Source: Salinimicrobium tongyeongense
GTDB taxonomy: Bacteria > Bacteroidota > Bacteroidia > Flavobacteriales > Flavobacteriaceae
Direction of reading: 5' to 3'
NCBI RefSeq assembly: GCF_026109735.1
Contig: NZ_CP069620.1
Span: forward strand, 2,356,001 to 2,420,000
Length of the DNA: 64,000 bases
Part shown: one piece after another, positions 40,796 to 47,749 of the stretch
How the letters are laid out: every line of letters starts with the position of its first letter
Numbering within the stretch: position 1 is the stretch's first letter
Position numbers and translations under genes: made by a program
Notes under the pieces: model-generated
The model's database searches: none
What the model saw: only the letters and a program-made list of their open reading frames with translations
What the model was told of the DNA's origin: nothing

Positions 40796-41563
40796 TTATC
40801 TTATGGAACTTATAAAATCCCCGATGCCGCCGGTGCCTTTTTCGCTAAGCTGTTTAATAAATGCGCTGCCAATAATGGCACCTTTGGTGTGAGAAGTCGC
40901 CGTGCTAAAGGTCTCGTGATCCTTAATTCCAAAGCCCACAATAAGAGGGTTCTTTAATGCCATTTTTGACACCCTGGTAAAATACTCCTTTTGCGTGTCT
41001 CCAAAACCTCCTGTTCCGCCTGTAACCGCCGCCGTGCTCACCATATAAATAAAACCTTCGGAAGCCTCATCGATCTTTCTGATTCTTTCTTCGGAAGTTT
41101 GGGGAGTGATAAGAAACACCGGAAGCAGGTCATACTGCTGAAAAATTCTCTTGTAGTGCAACTCGTATTCAGTTAGCGGAAGATCGGGAATAATAAGTCC
41201 GTCAATGCCTGTTTCACTGCACTTGCGGCAGAATTTCTCCACTCCATACTGAAGTATCGGGTTAAAATAGCCCATGATCAACAACGGAATATCAACCGTT
41301 TCCCTGATGTTTTCCAACTGATCAAAAAGTTTGGTGGTGGTCATGCCGTTTTCCAGCGCAATTTCCGAACTCCTTTGTATCACCGGGCCATCGGCTAATG
41401 GATCGCTAAATGGCAATCCAATTTCTACCATGGCCACTCCATTCTTCTGAAGTTCCTTGAGTATAGTCACCGTATCTCCGGGTTGAGGATATCCGGCTGT
41501 AAAGTAGATGGAAAGCAGCTTTTTTGAAGGCTCCTCCTGAAGTTTTTGTTTGATTCTGTTCAT
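40796..41563 (-). CDS. trpA: tryptophan synthase alpha chain
   Basis: 255 residues. TIM barrel: VEIGLPFSDPLADGPVIQRS (catalytic Glu and Asp), GLIIPDLPLTEYE and VGFGIKDHETF. Splits indole-3-glycerol phosphate to indole for TrpB. Last gene of the trp operon, but 129 bases after trpB, with a strong hairpin in between. Confidence 0.96.
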   Translation of the reverse strand: MNRIKQKLQEEPSKKLLSIYFTAGYPQPGDTVTILKELQKNGVAMVEIGLPFSDPLADGPVIQRSSEIALENGMTTTKLFDQLENIRETVDIPLLIMGYFNPILQYGVEKFCRKCSETGIDGLIIPDLPLTEYELHYKRIFQQYDLLPVFLITPQTSEERIRKIDEASEGFIYMVSTAAVTGGTGGFGDTQKEYFTRVSKMALKNPLIVGFGIKDHETFSTATSHTKGAIIGSAFIKQLSEKGTGGIGDFISSIR

Positions 41564-41574
41564 TTATTCTGATT

Positions 41575-41609
41575 TAAACCTAACAGGTTTTCAAAACCTG
41601 TTAGGTTTG
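41575..41609. repeat. perfect AACCTAACAGGTT hairpin between trpB and trpA
   Basis: Arms AAACCTAACAGGTTTT and its complement around a single C. Further short hairpins follow (TCCCGA/TCGGGA at 41630-41645; CCTGAA/TTCAGG at 41667-41683). This may pause transcription or stabilise the trpB end; there is no T-run of terminator quality. Confidence 0.75.
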
Positions 41610-41692
41610 ATTTATATCTACGTTAAGCTGTCCCGAACCATCGGGAATTTCAACTTCCATTAGATCCTGAAACCAGTTCAGGATGACGAAGC

Positions 41693-42874
41693 TTACAAGT
41701 TAAAATGTTCAATATAAGTGTTGAGGTCTTTATCCCCGCGCCCCGAAAGGTTCACCACAACCACTTCATCCTTTTCAAATTTCCTCTTGTCAAAAATGGC
41801 TAAAGCATGGGCTGTTTCAATGGCGGGAATGATCCCTTCCAGCTTGCATAACTGCAACCCTGCAGCCATGGCTTCTTCATCGGTAACCGAAATAAATTTC
41901 CCGCGACCGGTCCTAAACAGGTTGGCATGCAAAGGCCCAACCCCCGGATAATCCAGTCCGGCAGAGATGGAATAAGGTTCTGTGATCTGCCCGTCATCGG
42001 TTTGCATGAGCAGGGTTTTACTGCCGTGAATAATCCCTTCGCGGCCAAGAGCCGAAGTTGCAGCACTTTTTCCGGTAAGTATGCCTTCCCCGGCGGCCTC
42101 AACAGCAATGATATTTACTTTCTCATCGTCGAGGTAGTGATAGTAAATTCCGGCGGCATTACTGCCTCCGCCCACACAGGCTACCACATGATCTGGTGCT
42201 TCACGGCCTTCCTTTTCCTGAAGCTGCTTTTTCACCTCTTCAGAAATTACACTTTGGAAACGGGCTACCATATCGGGGTAGGGATGAGGCCCCACCACCG
42301 AACCAATGATGTAATGCGTGTCTACCGGATTGTTGATCCAGTCGCGGATGGCTTCATTGGTGGCGTCTTTCAATGTTCGGCTGCCCGATTTTGCCGGCAC
42401 CACCGTAGCGCCCAGCATCTTCATCCGGGCCACGTTTGGCGCCTGCCTCTTAATGTCAATCTCGCCCATATACACCACGCACTCAATGCCCATTAAAGCA
42501 CAAACCGTCGCAGTGGCAACGCCGTGCTGGCCTGCCCCGGTTTCAGCAATGATACGGTTTTTGCCCAGGCGTTTTGCCATCAGGATCTGCCCAATGGTGT
42601 TATTTACTTTATGCGCCCCGGTATGGCAAAGGTCTTCGCGTTTTAAATAGACTTTGGCACCGAATTTCTCGCTGAACCTTTCAGCAAAATACAGCGGAGT
42701 GGGCCGCCCTACATAATCCTTCAGCAGCTGGCGGAATTCTTTCTGAAAACCCTCTTCCTGCATGATGTTCAGATAGCCGGAACGCAGTTCTTCCACATTT
42801 GGGTATAGCATTTCAGGGATAAAGGCGCCGCCAAAATCCCCGTAATATCCTTTTTCGTTTACTTGATAACTCAT
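41693..42874 (-). CDS. trpB: tryptophan synthase beta chain
   Basis: 393 residues. PLP-binding Lys89 in [13 protein letters not shown], the phosphate loop GGGSNAAG, and GLDYPGVGP near the C-terminus. Joins indole to serine. TrpB1 type, the form that pairs with TrpA. Five bases after trpF. Confidence 0.97.
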
Positions 42875-42879
42875 AATTT

Positions 42880-43527
42880 CTAATTGTATAGCCGTTCCCT
42901 GAAGGTCTTCAAAGCTTCGGCGTCTTTTACTGCCGGGGCAGTTTCAAATTTACTGTTCACGTCAATGCCATAAAAGACCTCCTCTTTTTGCCTTTTTTGG
43001 AAGGTATGGTAAAGTTCTTTTACTGCGGCTGCATCACCGGGCCCAATCCCGCCACTTAAAAAGAAGGGCGTGTTTGAAGAATAATTTTCCAGGATTTCCC
43101 AGTTGAAGCTAATGCCGTTGCCGCCCCGGTTCTTTCCGCGGGTGTCAAAAAGGAAATAATCCACTATAGCTTCATACGGCTGTAACTTCTCAAAATCAAA
43201 GTCTTCTTTGATGCCGAATACCTTGATGAGCTCAATTTCTTCGGAAATCTGCTGCTTCAGGCTGCGAATAAACTCCGGACTTTCATCTCCGTGTAACTGA
43301 AGTGCCGAAAGTTGGTATTTTTTGATCTTTTCCAGGATATTCTCTTCGGAAGCATTCACAAAAACCCCTGTTTTCCTGATGTTTTGGTCTACCTGAAATA
43401 TTTCTCCAACAACATTGCGCGGAGAACCGTCAAAAAAGATGAGCCCCAGGTAATCGGGTTTTAAAGCCGCGATCCTGCTCATATTTTCGGGCTCCCGCAT
43501 GCCGCAGATCTTCAGTTTCAGGTTCAT
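42880..43527 (-). CDS. trpF: phosphoribosylanthranilate isomerase
   Basis: 215 residues. [11 protein letters not shown] (catalytic Cys7-type start), [27 protein letters not shown] and [11 protein letters not shown] are all standard. Converts PRA to CdRP. The start ATG overlaps the trpC stop (TGATG). Confidence 0.95.
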
Positions 43528-44318
43528 CAGGCTTCGGTTTTTAATTTCTGAATAAATTCTGAAGCGCTTTTTCCGGGATCTTGGGTCTTCATGAAATTTC
43601 CACCGATAAGAAATCCTTTAAATCCGCTTTTTTGAAGCTCTGTAATTGCCGAAGTTTCACTAATCCCACTTTCAGAGATCTTAATGAAACTATCAGGGAT
43701 CTCTTCAGCTAAATCTTTGCTGGTTTGCAGGTCCACCTCGAAGGTTTTGAGGTTTCGGTTATTAACGCCTATCATATCTACGCTGTCAAAAATGGCATTT
43801 TTGAGCTCCTCTTCATTGTGCACTTCCAGCAGTACTTCAAGCCCCAGGTCTTTTGCCTTTTTTGAAAGTTTTTTGATCTCTTCAGGCTTCAGGATGGCTG
43901 CGATCAACAGGATCACATCGGCGCCCATGGCTTTTGCTTCAATAACCTGGTATTCATCGATCATAAAATCCTTCCGAAGCAAAGGAAGTTTAACTGTTTC
44001 GCGCGCTATGGCAAGATCGTCGAGGTTGCCGCCAAAGAATTCTTCATCTGTAAGCACCGAAATGCCCGAGGCCCCGGCAGCTTCATAGCCTGCGGTCACT
44101 GTGGCCACATCGGCTTTCAAATTAATTTCAGGATGGGAAGGGGAACGGCGTTTAAATTCTGCTATGATCCCGGTGGAGGAATTCTTCAGGTTTTCCTTTA
44201 AAGAAATGCACTTTCGGCTAAAATGGGGCAGGAGTTGAAGGGATTCTGCAGGCACTTCTTCCTTTAAAAATGCTACCTCTTCTCTTTTTCTTGCTGCTAT
44301 TTTGTCAAGTATGTTCAT
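43527..44318 (-). CDS. trpC: indole-3-glycerol phosphate synthase
   Basis: 263 residues. Full TIM barrel with IAEFKRRSPSHPEI, LPLLRKDFMIDEYQV, MIGVNNRNLKTFEVDL and ISESGISE. Closes the indole ring from CdRP. Separate from TrpF here, not fused as in enterobacteria. The gene contains an exact copy of the recurring palindrome (43787-43800) within its coding sequence. Confidence 0.96.
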   Translation of the reverse strand: MNILDKIAARKREEVAFLKEEVPAESLQLLPHFSRKCISLKENLKNSSTGIIAEFKRRSPSHPEINLKADVATVTAGYEAAGASGISVLTDEEFFGGNLDDLAIARETVKLPLLRKDFMIDEYQVIEAKAMGADVILLIAAILKPEEIKKLSKKAKDLGLEVLLEVHNEEELKNAIFDSVDMIGVNNRNLKTFEVDLQTSKDLAEEIPDSFIKISESGISETSAITELQKSGFKGFLIGGNFMKTQDPGKSASEFIQKLKTEA

Positions 44319-44326
44319 GCTAAGCT

Positions 44327-45316
44327 TTAATTTAATTGCTGAAGTTTTTCAAGGGCTGAAAGGGCGCGACCTGACCGCAGACTTTCTTTGGCCTCTAAAA
44401 AGGCATTTTGCAGGCCTGTGTTTTTTGCGGTGTTTATGGCCACTGCGGCATTGGCGCAAACCACATTCTCCTGGGCGGCCGTACCTTGATTTTTAAGCAC
44501 GTTCATAAAGATCTCTGCGGCCGATTCTACCGTGTTCCCTCCCGAAATTTCGTAAGCCGCAATGGTATTGAGCTGGAGATCGGCGGGTTTTAGGATTGAT
44601 TCGGTAGTATTGGTGATCATTTTGGTATTTCCGGTAAGGGAGATCTCGTCGTAGCCGTCAAGAGCGTGTAAAATAGTAAAATTCTTATCGGTTTTCTGGT
44701 AGAGGTAAGCGTACATCCTGGCCAGTTCAAGGCTGAACACGCCCACCACCTGGTTCTTGGGAAATGCCGGATTCACCATGGGCCCCAGCATATTGAAAAA
44801 GGTTTTTACTGCCAGTTCTTTACGGATTGGGGCAACATTTTTCATGGCCGGGTGAAAAAGGGCAGCGTGAAGGAAACAAATTCCGGCTTCGTCCATACTG
44901 CGCTTTAGAAAATCCTGTTCATTACTGAATTTTATCCCTAAATGCTCCATCACATTCGAGCTGCCGCAGCCCGAAGAAACGCCGTAATTCCCGTGTTTTG
45001 CCACTTTTACACCTGCTCCTGCCGTCACAAAGGACGCCAAAGTTGAAATATTAAAGGTGTCCTTGCCATCGCCGCCTGTTCCGCAGAGATCAATTGGATC
45101 ATACTGCGCAAGATCTGTAGAAAGGCACATTTCGAGCAGGGCGTCCCTAAAACCTTCCAGTTCTTCGAGCGTGATGCTGCGCATCATGTAAACGGTGAGG
45201 AAAGCGGCAATCTGGCTGTGGTTGTATTTTCCGGCAGAAATGTTGATGAGCACGTTCCTGGCTTCTTCTTTTGAAATAGTTTCGTGGTTGATCAACCTGT
45301 TTAAAATTTCTTTCAT
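44327..45316 (-). CDS. trpD: anthranilate phosphoribosyltransferase
   Basis: 329 residues from ATG 45316 (MKEILNRLINHETISKEEA), four bases after trpG; an ATG at 45346 would overlap trpG. CGTGGDGKDTFNIST is the PRPP-binding loop and KHGNYGVSSGCGSSNVME the anthranilate site. Transfers phosphoribose to anthranilate. Confidence 0.96.
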   Translation of the reverse strand: MKEILNRLINHETISKEEARNVLINISAGKYNHSQIAAFLTVYMMRSITLEELEGFRDALLEMCLSTDLAQYDPIDLCGTGGDGKDTFNISTLASFVTAGAGVKVAKHGNYGVSSGCGSSNVMEHLGIKFSNEQDFLKRSMDEAGICFLHAALFHPAMKNVAPIRKELAVKTFFNMLGPMVNPAFPKNQVVGVFSLELARMYAYLYQKTDKNFTILHALDGYDEISLTGNTKMITNTTESILKPADLQLNTIAAYEISGGNTVESAAEIFMNVLKNQGTAAQENVVCANAAVAINTAKNTGLQNAFLEAKESLRSGRALSALEKLQQLN

Positions 45317-45320
45317 GCTT

Positions 45321-46016
45321 TTAAATGGTTTCAGATTGCTGCTCATTTTTTCCTTCCGCAGATCTCTTTACCGGACTGTTGATCCAGTTGGCAATCATTT
45401 TCTTGCCTTCGGGCGTTAAAACCGATTCCGGGTGGAATTGTACGCCGCGCACATCAAAATCGCGGTGGCGCAGGGACATTACCTCTCCGTTCTCGTCGTA
45501 TGAAGTAGCCTCTAAACAGTCGGGCAGCTCGCGGTCTACTACCCAGGAGTGGTAGCGGCCAACCTCCAGTTCGTTGTTGAGCTGGTCGTAAAGAGGTTCA
45601 TTGGTCACGCACAATTTTATTTTGGAAGCAACCCCGTGATGCACCTGCTTTAGATTGATGAGTTTTCCTCCAAAGACTTCGCCAATGGCCTGCTGCCCCA
45701 AACACACCCCAAAAATGCTCTTTTTGGAAGCGTAGGTGGAGATGACCTCTTTTAAAAGTCCGGCTTCGTCGGGAATCCCCGGCCCGGGAGAGAGGAGGAT
45801 CTTGTCGTATTGTTCGATTTCTTCAAGGTTGATTTCATCATTTCTTCGCACAGTGACTTTACAATCAAGTTCCTCAAGGTAATGCACGAGGTTGTACACA
45901 AAGGAATCGTAATTGTCGATCACGAGGACAGATGGTGCCCCTCCCTGGCCTTCCATAATTGGGAGGGAGTTTTTTGTTATATCAAGATTATTTTTCATCT
46001 TTTTATTTCTTTTCAT
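45321..46016 (-). CDS. trpG: anthranilate synthase component II (glutamine amidotransferase)
   Basis: 231 residues as drawn from ATG 46016. Class I amidotransferase: LLSPGPGIPDEAG, the Cys nucleophile in GVCLGQQAIG, and VQFHPESVLT with the His-Glu pair. Supplies ammonia to TrpE. The start is uncertain: family members begin two to five residues before VIDNYDSF, but here the frame runs ~30 residues further up through repeat DNA. Candidates are ATG 46016, ATG 45998, ATG 45956 (inside a repeat) or a GTG directly at VIDNYDSF. The C-terminal ~20 residues are an unusual polar tail. Confidence 0.92.
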   Translation of the reverse strand: MKRNKKMKNNLDITKNSLPIMEGQGGAPSVLVIDNYDSFVYNLVHYLEELDCKVTVRRNDEINLEEIEQYDKILLSPGPGIPDEAGLLKEVISTYASKKSIFGVCLGQQAIGEVFGGKLINLKQVHHGVASKIKLCVTNEPLYDQLNNELEVGRYHSWVVDRELPDCLEATSYDENGEVMSLRHRDFDVRGVQFHPESVLTPEGKKMIANWINSPVKRSAEGKNEQQSETI

Positions 46017-46059
46017 TCCCCTCCTTTCCAGGAAGGGGTGCCCAACGGGCGGGGTGGTT
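45934..46059. repeat. two GGGGTGCCC repeat copies between trpE and trpG
   Basis: Copy A (46018-46059) has CCCCTCCTTTCCAGGAAGGG followed by GTGCCCAACGGGCGGGGTGG and abuts the trpE stop codon. Copy B (45934-45970) has GGTGCCCCTCCCTGGCC and GGGAGGGAGT and lies over the trpG N-terminus. They look like inverted relatives of a common flavobacterial interspersed element. Confidence 0.65.
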
Positions 46060-47454
46060 TTAGATTTCTTCAGCCAGCTCCAAAGCTTTTTTTAAGGCTC
46101 CTATTTTGTTATATACTTCCTGTAATTCACCTTCGGGAGTTGAGCCGGAGACTATCCCGGCGCCGGCTTGGTAATAAAGTCGGTGGTTTTTGCTCAGAAA
46201 AGACCTGATGATGATTGCATGGTTAAAATTTCCGTTGAAGTCCATAAAGCCAATGGCACCGCCATAAAAGTCGCGGTTTACATTCTCATATTTTTCAATG
46301 AGCTGCATGGCCTTGTGTTTTGGAGCCCCGCTTAGCGTACCAGCCGGGAAAGTATCGGCTACCAGTTGCATGGTGCTTACATCGGAGTTTTTCACACCAG
46401 TAACTTTGCTGACCAAATGGATTACGTGGGAAAAATACTGGATCTCCTTATAATTTTCAACTTTGACCTGTTTGCTGCTTCGGCTTAGGTCATTGCGGGC
46501 GAGGTCTACCAGCATCACATGTTCGGCGTTTTCTTTTTCATCTGAGGCCAGATCTTTTGCTCTCACGGCATCCTGTTCATCATTTCCGGTGCGTTTAAAG
46601 GTGCCGGCAATGGGATGAATTTCGGCATTTCCGTCTTTGACCACCAGCTGGGCTTCGGGCGAACTTCCGAAGATCTTAAAGCTTCCGTAGTCAAAATAGA
46701 AGAGATAGGGCGAGGGGTTTACATTCCGTAAGGCCCGGTAAACGTTGAACTCGTCGCCTTTAAATCCCTGGGAAAACCTTCGGGAGAGCACCAGTTGAAA
46801 AACATCCCCGCGGCGGCAATGTTCCTTGGCTTTTAAAACCATTTGGCGGTAACCTTCATCGGTCTCGTTTGAATCAGGCTCCCCTTCCGCAGAAAAAGAA
46901 TAAGAAGAGAAATTCTTCACTTTTAGCAGCTGCTCAATTTGCTCGAGGTTGCTCTTTTCTGAATAGCTGTGATCAAAAATGTAAGCCTCGTTATTGAAAT
47001 GGTTTATGGCGATAATATTTTGATAGACCGCGTAATGGATTTCGGGAATCTCAAGGTCATCCTTCTTTTTTGAAAGATCCAGCTTTTCGAAATACTGCAC
47101 CCCGTCATACGCGATGTAACCAAACAGGCCTTCGTTTATGAAGTTAAAATGAGGGGCATTGGTTTTGAACTTTTGGGAGAACCCGTGTATGGCAGCAGGC
47201 ACATCAAATTTGGGAGTTATTTGAGTTTCCCTAGAGGTGCCATCAGGAAATGATTCAATAAAATGCCCTTTTTCGAGTTTTACGCTGGCTATAGGGTTGC
47301 AGCAAATGTAGGAAAAACTGTTCTCGTTCCCGTGGTAATCGCTACTCTCCAAGAGGAGGCTGTTGGGGAAAATATCCCTTAACCTGAGGTATACACTTAC
47401 GGGCGTAAAAGTATCGGCGAGAAGCTTTTTATAGGTGGTGTTGAGTTGGTACAT
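46060..47454 (-). CDS. trpE: anthranilate synthase component I
   Basis: 464 residues. Chorismate-binding domain in the C-terminal ~270 residues with DVFQLVLSRRFSQGF, HPIAGTFKRTG, LVDLARNDLSR, TFPAGTLSGAPKHKAMQLI and YYQAGAGIVSGSTPEGE. The N-terminal domain carries the Trp feedback region (LLLESSDYHG). Makes anthranilate from chorismate with TrpG. First structural gene of the operon, behind the attenuator at 47487-47600. Confidence 0.97.
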   Translation of the reverse strand: MYQLNTTYKKLLADTFTPVSVYLRLRDIFPNSLLLESSDYHGNENSFSYICCNPIASVKLEKGHFIESFPDGTSRETQITPKFDVPAAIHGFSQKFKTNAPHFNFINEGLFGYIAYDGVQYFEKLDLSKKKDDLEIPEIHYAVYQNIIAINHFNNEAYIFDHSYSEKSNLEQIEQLLKVKNFSSYSFSAEGEPDSNETDEGYRQMVLKAKEHCRRGDVFQLVLSRRFSQGFKGDEFNVYRALRNVNPSPYLFYFDYGSFKIFGSSPEAQLVVKDGNAEIHPIAGTFKRTGNDEQDAVRAKDLASDEKENAEHVMLVDLARNDLSRSSKQVKVENYKEIQYFSHVIHLVSKVTGVKNSDVSTMQLVADTFPAGTLSGAPKHKAMQLIEKYENVNRDFYGGAIGFMDFNGNFNHAIIIRSFLSKNHRLYYQAGAGIVSGSTPEGELQEVYNKIGALKKALELAEEI

Positions 47455-47486
47455 GTGTTTCTTTTGATTTTACTGAAATTTGGCCA

Positions 47487-47519
47487 TAAAAAAAGGCTTG
47501 TCGTGATTGACAAGCCTTT
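47487..47519 (-). terminator. attenuator terminator before trpE
   Basis: On the minus strand AAAGGCTTGTC and GACAAGCCTTT pair around AATCAC and are followed by eight T. It lies between the leader peptide stop and trpE (33 bases before the trpE ATG). The segment TCACGAC, in loop and 3' arm (47500-47506), can instead pair with GTCGTGA at 47544-47550, which would break the terminator. Confidence 0.85.
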
Positions 47520-47543
47520 GTATATGATTACAGGAGGTGTTGC

Positions 47544-47600
47544 TCACGACGAATGACGTAAGTGCTTCCACCACCAGTTATTTTTATTGATCAGGTTCAT
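47544..47600 (-). CDS. trpL: trp leader peptide
   Basis: 18 codons encoding MNLINKNNWWWKHLRHSS, with three consecutive Trp codons at residues 9-11 (47568-47576) and a TGA stop that overlaps the antiterminator segment GTCGTGA. Ribosomes stalled at the Trp codons under Trp shortage would leave that segment free to pair with the terminator and let trpE be transcribed; ribosomes that finish would cover it and allow termination. Too short for normal gene calling, but the Trp run, position and terminator together make it convincing. A TATATTTG box is nine bases upstream. Confidence 0.88.
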   Translation of the reverse strand: MNLINKNNWWWKHLRHSS

Positions 47601-47608
47601 TTGAATAG

Positions 47609-47616
47609 CAAATATA
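47609..47616 (-). promoter_or_regulatory. -7 box of the trp operon
   Basis: TATATTTG on the minus strand, a perfect TAnnTTTG, eight bases before the leader peptide ATG. The transcript would start almost at the leader codon. Confidence 0.6.
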
Positions 47617-47749
47617 TAAGGGAAATTTTTCTAAAAAAATATTTTTTGAAAAATTTTTCTAGTTTAAGAGGAAATCTAGGCTGTAAAAAGAGCTGAAAAA
47701 GTGCCGGTGATCCTTATATTTGTGAATACAACTTAAAGAAGAAATAAGC

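Follow-up and report, generated by a model that had tools for sequence, protein, structure and literature searches.

The trpEGDCFBA operon of Salinimicrobium tongyeongense is preceded by a short reading frame with consecutive Trp codons and by a transcription terminator. This arrangement raises the question whether the genes are controlled by ribosome-mediated attenuation and, if so, which RNA segments would keep the terminator from forming. The region was analysed within a stretch of 64,000 nucleotides, here called the window, and was compared with its counterparts in related genomes. We read it as a transcription attenuator that works through the ribosome and belongs to RF01692 (Bacteroid-trp), with a probability of about 0.85. 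Attenuation had already been proposed in an earlier note on this DNA, and the proposal is supported by the family membership, by a Trp-run leader at all trpE loci compared and by compensatory changes in the antiterminator helix. The switch is of an ordinary kind and belongs to a known family; the comparison makes a clear case for the antiterminator helix and corrects the earlier account of the helices.

Parts of the leader region and its RNA family

The features of the locus are collected in Table 1. On the minus strand, the order is the TATATTTG box, 8 nt, the ATG, the leader reading frame with its TGA, the terminator, the T-run and trpE. The T-run ends at 47488, which leaves 33 nt before the trpE ATG at 47454, so that the attenuator stands directly before a tryptophan biosynthesis gene. 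The box, the 18-codon leader with WWW and the T-run terminator had all been described by the earlier note and were found again at the same positions. The sequence likewise confirms that GTCGTGA (47550-47544, segment B) is the exact complement of TCACGAC (47506-47500, segment C). When the 48 nt following the Trp codons of the window were matched against the loop region, a Watson-Crick helix of at least 7 bp was obtained in 0.54% of 5000 mononucleotide shuffles. The fold of positions 47485-47610, including the terminator, has a z of -4.54.

Table 1. Features of the trp leader region and operon, in window positions
Feature	Position	Strand	Basis
Bacteroidetes sigma-A -7 box, TATATTTG	47609..47616	(-)	sequence; box position from the available text of PMC9723704
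Leader peptide ORF, 18 codons, MNLINKNNWWWKHLRHSS + TGA	47544..47600	(-)	sequence
Three consecutive Trp codons, presumed ribosome stall site	47568..47576	(-)	WWW in leader
Segment A, CTTACG, partner of B in the predicted protecting helix "1:2"	47557..47562	(-)	minimum-energy fold
Segment B, GTCGTGA, 5' strand of the antiterminator closing helix, overlapping the leader stop	47544..47550	(-)	
Segment C, TCACGAC, 3' strand of the antiterminator closing helix (terminator loop and top of 3' arm)	47500..47506	(-)	
Terminator hairpin, 11-bp stem, 6-nt loop	47492-47519 (with T-run 47488..47519)	(-)	
Terminator 5' arm, AAAGGCTTGTC	47519-47509	(-)	
Terminator loop, AATCAC, between AAAGGCTTGTC and GACAAGCCTTT		(-)	
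Terminator 3' arm, GACAAGCCTTT	47502-47492	(-)	
Terminator T-run	47494-47488	(-)	
RF01692 Bacteroid-trp match, 52.9 bits (gathering 49)	47509..47620	(-)	covariance model
trpE, first gene of trpEGDCFBA	46060..47454	(-)	Pfam PF00425/PF04715, ORF
trpEGDCFBA operon	40796-47454	(-)	Pfam domains per gene

The covariance model of RF01692 scored the region at 52.9 bits, above the gathering cut-off of 49, and the element is an instance of this family. Its kind is therefore already known, since besides the match there are earlier reports: the Bacteroid-trp leader is listed in Table 1 of PMC2864571, with consensus drawings in an additional file, and, in the text available of each source, the RNA is described as conserved upstream of the Flavobacterium psychrophilum trp operon (PMC6414381), and strong clues for leader-peptide attenuation are given before amino-acid operons of the same species (PMC9723704). 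The F. psychrophilum reports concern the same phylum and the same kind of regulation; they differ in that the parts available of PMC9723704 and PMC6414381 describe no pairing scheme. In the available portions of the literature searched, no tested mechanism for a Bacteroidetes trp leader was found, and the RNA appears there as a catalogued one.

Apart from its score, the region resembles the family in its position before trp genes and in the consensus hairpin, which covers the Trp codons and the stretch after the leader stop codon. It differs in its extent, because the model ends at the terminator 5' arm (GGCUUGUC) without the loop and the 3' arm, so that the pairing between segments B and C lies beyond it. 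At the other end, model positions 1-20 correspond to window positions 47620-47601, before the leader ATG and over the promoter -7 box. With the promoter box, the 5' end of RF01692 thus takes in DNA that is probably untranscribed, and most of the terminator falls outside the model.

RF01692 matches were identified in 275 of 397 genomes of the window's family (f1), which we take to be the Flavobacteriaceae from the names of the best 80 TrpE relatives. A search of 198 genomes of the phylum under stricter filters gave 18 matching genomes, all of them in this same family. Two batches of 40 genomes, hand-picked from other families and searched with E up to 0.1, contained 1 and 3 matching genomes; 2 of these 80 genomes share the window's order. 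In two further families, f88 and f68, matches were present in 53 of 78 and 17 of 41 genomes, respectively. Our guess that both belong to the Bacteroidales is based on Bacteroides ihuae, a named control that is also positive for RF01692. By eye, the next gene is trpB-like in L132 (f88) and in L133 (f68). The genomes of the two batches had been picked with the help of a permissive pattern search in 295 genomes from the class, the only use made of it: its matches (122 genomes) were set aside as mostly chance, as a backward control pattern matched about as freely.

For the trpE loci, the best 80 of 591 TrpE matches were retained, the closest among them being from Salinimicrobium (92% identity). 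Once the window is added, a Trp-run leader lies no more than about 420 nt from trpE in 75 of the 81 loci. The remaining six, which at first appeared to lack a leader, carry the attenuator further upstream, beyond an inserted stretch, and with them the count is 81 of 81. Comparison with the relatives, which the earlier note had suggested as a check, thus shows the Trp-run leader to be conserved; among the 118 leaders with the motif TCGTRR in the window's family, 117 encode WWW. In the six loci (L004, L007, L016, L033, L050 and L052), a GIY-YIG-like stretch lies between the terminator and trpE, and the attenuator is intact. Open frames of 94-98 amino acids are present in this stretch in L004, L007, L016 and L033, and the L004 copy matches Pfam PF01541; in L050 and L052, the similarity of the insertion was seen by eye only.

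Probable pairing of the stop-codon region with the terminator loop

To the loci found through TrpE were added the 30 best-scoring RF01692 loci of the window's family (275 genomes matched) and 14 new ones from the phylum search (18 genomes matched), which gave 125 loci. Of these, 118 were used; L069 was masked, and L005, L031, L054, L056, L124 and L125 are without TCGTRR. From f88, the 30 best RF01692 matches were taken (53 genomes matched; 1 was already in the batch set), with 26 used and L146, L153, L161 and L162 unparsed, and from f68 all 17, with 14 used and L167, L168 and L179 unparsed. L131 and L134 stand outside the count because they are without TCGTRR. The resulting 158 loci, with 154 distinct leaders, are near TrpE relatives or best RF01692 scores and not a random sample, and they are relatives rather than independent events, compared without a tree. 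Choice by RF01692 score biases the set toward the Rfam model, although segment C is absent from that model. Segment B was picked by its motif and C by best pairing, a mild bias towards pairing that the shuffled and slid controls share.

In all 154 distinct leaders, five adjacent B:C positions are paired. At the stop-codon base that varies between TGA and TAA, the pair is G-C in 116, A-T in 34 and G-T in 4 of the distinct leaders, with no mismatch, and the two leaders with a TAG stop have G-C at the next position. A Watson-Crick helix of at least 6 bp with the loop zone was found in 77% of the leaders and in 3% of the shuffles. Of all B:C cells, 0.951 were paired, compared to 0.926 when C was dealt anew among the loci (maximum 0.930 of 500) and 0.07-0.57 when the partner was slid; the value after dealing stays close to the observed one because the letters are the same in most loci and because many C segments taken from other loci can still pair with B through wobble.

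GUCGUGA or UCGUGA with UCACGAC is the usual combination in the window's family, and in f88 it is GUCGUAAG with CUUGCGGC or CUUGCGAC. In the Dokdonia locus L018, a member of the window's family, both sides have changed together (UCGUAA with UUACGA), and G-U pairs are retained in L039 and L053 of that family. A compensated variant, UUGUGAA with UUCACAG, is present in L131 from a further family, and in L134 no B:C pairing was found. Among the loci without the motif, L005, L031, L054 and L056 retain a 5-bp CGTGA:TCACG helix, and in L124 and L125 inspection by eye shows no more than a short GTGAG match. Among the seven loci left unparsed, an 8-bp helix is present in five and a 6-bp one in L168; for L146, the search by script was empty, and GTCGTAAG with CTTGCGAC is visible by eye. 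Compensatory changes in the 7-base pairing, which the earlier note had asked of the relatives, are thus present, the stop base being paired in 154 of 154 distinct leaders. Across the window's family and two more families of the class, the relatives support a B:C pairing that has been maintained with compensatory changes.

Two other measures of pairing were set aside. A count in which the loop could take any partner upstream chose the Trp codons over B in many loci and was replaced. Pairing of the terminator 5' arm within the antiterminator amounted to 8.3 nt in f88 (control 6.2 nt) and 8.8 nt in f68 (control 6.3 nt), and was dropped as a conserved element for the window's family, where the control was nearly equal (6.5 versus 5.7 nt). 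No description of an antiterminator with the terminator loop, or of this pairing scheme, was found in the available parts of the literature on Bacteroidetes, flavobacterial or Bacteroides attenuation or on RF01692; the drawings in the additional file of PMC2864571 may show it.

The position of C also bears on whether B replaces the terminator or only weakens it. Four of the seven C bases lie in the loop in the window and its family, as would suit a pseudoknot in which B pairs with the loop alone on an intact terminator. In the commonest form of f88 and f68, however, five of eight C bases belong to the 3' arm (CUU|GCGAC), so that the top of the stem must open, and the pseudoknot appears unlikely. 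A further reading is that the terminated RNA, or the peptide, has a function in trans beside attenuation in cis, as reported in the accessible text of PMC7298713 for rnTrpL and peTrpL of Sinorhizobium meliloti, with which the locus shares the order of short transcript, Trp peptide and terminator. Such a function is quite unlikely here, as nothing in the present data points to it and pairing in cis explains the conserved loop.

The predicted protecting helix and the proposed switch

The E. coli trp attenuator comprises segments 1 to 4, of which segment 2 is the partner of the terminator 5' arm. The present locus shares with it the Trp-run leader, a predicted protecting 1:2 helix, a predicted antiterminator and a terminator followed by T. 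It differs in the closing helix of the antiterminator, which here joins the leader stop region to the terminator loop and the top of the 3' arm, in place of segment 2 and the 5' arm.

The earlier note had held that two competing helices suffice and that four segments are not needed, and this part of its account is not supported by the predicted folds. Before the terminator has been made, B is predicted to be bound upstream in 117 of 118 loci of the window's family, 26 of 26 of f88 and 14 of 14 of f68 (157/158), compared to 54%, 10% and 36%, respectively, after shuffling of the stretch before B. B so bound makes a third helix, as in classical attenuators, and in the predicted folds their 1:2, 2:3 and 3:4 logic is present. 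In the minimum-energy fold of the window, the upstream partner of B is CUUACG (segment A); this exact partner was read in the window alone. The Trp codons in turn have a predicted partner beyond B in 109 of 118, 18 of 26 and 12 of 14 loci, a raw count.

For the other states, the RNA presumed to be covered by the ribosome was removed before folding, with an assumed footprint of 15 nt counted from the first base of the A-site codon; on the downstream side of a stop codon, as much as 12 nt is reported in the part of PMC4833913 available. When the ribosome was placed at the last Trp codon and the RNA was ended at C, B:C was predicted in 118 of 118, 24 of 26 and 14 of 14 loci of f1, f88 and f68. 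For the stop-codon state, in which everything up to 9 nt beyond the stop was deleted, the terminator folds in 158 of 158, a weak test since B is cut by construction. In the predicted folds, the terminator and B:C are mutually exclusive, and B:C is the helix that carries the compensatory changes. Once finished, the terminator beats B:C even with a stalled ribosome in 115 of 118, 26 of 26 and 14 of 14 loci at predicted equilibrium; antitermination must therefore be kinetic, a matter of timing.

It has to be considered whether B:C competes with the terminator alone, as a minimal switch without a protecting hairpin. When the RNA ends at C and carries no ribosome, B:C is the preferred fold in 30 of 118 loci of the window's family, 2 of 26 of f88 and 0 of 14 of f68, and the window is among those 30 (B:C 0.95, A:B 0.04), so that its ribosome-free state depends on A:B forming first. 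Nevertheless, the upstream binding of B exceeds the shuffled controls in each family, and the Rfam consensus hairpin spans the same stretch, which makes the minimal switch very unlikely.

For the attenuator with a protecting helix, we infer the start site, the stalling, the ribosome cover and the actual termination or antitermination from the observed parts, their conservation, the compensatory changes and the predicted structures. RNA polymerase would start a few nucleotides before the leader ATG, with the ribosome trailing behind. When tryptophan is scarce, a ribosome stalled on WWW would cover segment A and leave B (GUCGUGA) free; as the terminator loop emerges, B:C pairing would take the loop and the top of the 3' arm (UCACGAC), the terminator would not be nucleated and trpE would be transcribed. 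When tryptophan is plentiful, a ribosome at the stop codon would cover B, so that the terminator would fold and transcription would end. In the absence of a ribosome, the A:B hairpin, extended by pairing of the Trp codons downstream, would hold B, and the terminator would again fold.

Consistent spacing was found between the presumed stall site and B. Counted from the first Trp codon, TCGTRR begins at 27 nt in 96 of the 118 leaders of the window's family, at 28 nt in 19, at 26 nt in 2 and at 25 nt in 1, so that 117 of the 118 fall within 27±1 nt; common ancestry of the coding stretch accounts for part of this constancy. B and the terminator are 23 to 43 nt apart, and in 28 of the 118 the stop codon is located elsewhere than at B. 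From these spacings, the position of B seems to be held by its distance from the stall site and not by its being the stop codon. That GTCGTGA and TCACGAC form a DNA inverted repeat bound by a repressor is hardly credible and was rejected, because, near-invariant as their letters are within the window's family, the spacing is variable and the letters change with compensation, G-U pairs included.

In L141, L152, L155, L159 and L175 (f88 and f68), the leader reading frame extends 25-28 nt beyond B and the usual stop, with segment B itself intact. In these loci, B could stay uncovered when a ribosome has reached the stop codon; frame changes or an alternative covering of B are possible.

Start of the leader transcript and comparison with known systems

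The box is placed at -12 to -5 relative to the transcription start in the text available of PMC9723704. Since it stands 8 nt from the ATG in the window, the 5' UTR would be about 4 nt, with a start near 47604. Among 118 parsed leaders of the window's family, the spacing is 4-8 nt (UTR of 0-4 nt) in 66, 11-20 nt in 48 and 30 nt in 1, with no box in 3; this set differs from the 118 of the pairing count, as the six insertion loci are out and the six without TCGTRR are in. In the 40 parsed loci of f88 and f68, it is 19-33 nt in 35 and longer in 5. The earlier note had called the mRNA nearly leaderless. This is consistent with the published box position for the window, and judged by box spacing such a start is plausible for about half of the family's leaders; however, it holds neither for the whole family nor for f88 and f68, and the short-UTR form appears lineage-specific. 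It would be unusual, given that leaderless mRNAs make up 5.5% in F. psychrophilum (PMC9723704) and 5' UTRs under 10 nt about 3.7% in Bacteroides thetaiotaomicron (PMC7366714), as far as the available parts of both sources state.

An attenuator RNA that starts at the ATG of its leader is described in the accessible text of PMC7298713 for S. meliloti trpL. The Trp leader peptide is common to both systems, and here too its mRNA would start close to the ATG. They differ in that the start is exactly at the ATG in S. meliloti, while here it would be 4 nt before and further upstream in 48 of 118 leaders of the window's family. Shine-Dalgarno sequences are generally absent in the phylum (PMC3155529, from the part available), and the leader may be a natural regulatory peptide translated there from a nearly leaderless mRNA.

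Trp attenuation in a Bacteroidota form would have the leader stop-codon region as antiterminator strand and the terminator loop with the upper 3' arm as its partner, the loop letters tracking TGA, TAA or TAG. About half of the leaders in the window's family would have 0-4 nt before the ATG, and the reach of the ribosome would be set by a fixed distance of about 27 nt between the first Trp codon and the antiterminator strand. We lean towards this description, with reservations. The comparison supplies named bases for a mutational test.

Within the operon, a separate observation was made at the trpE/trpG junction (window 45901-46075, minus strand), where there are G+C-rich palindromes, CACCCCTTCCTGGAAAGGAGGGG and a similar one within the trpG frame. 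One guessed core pattern of the palindrome gave no match within the window; by eye, they look like a dispersed repeat.
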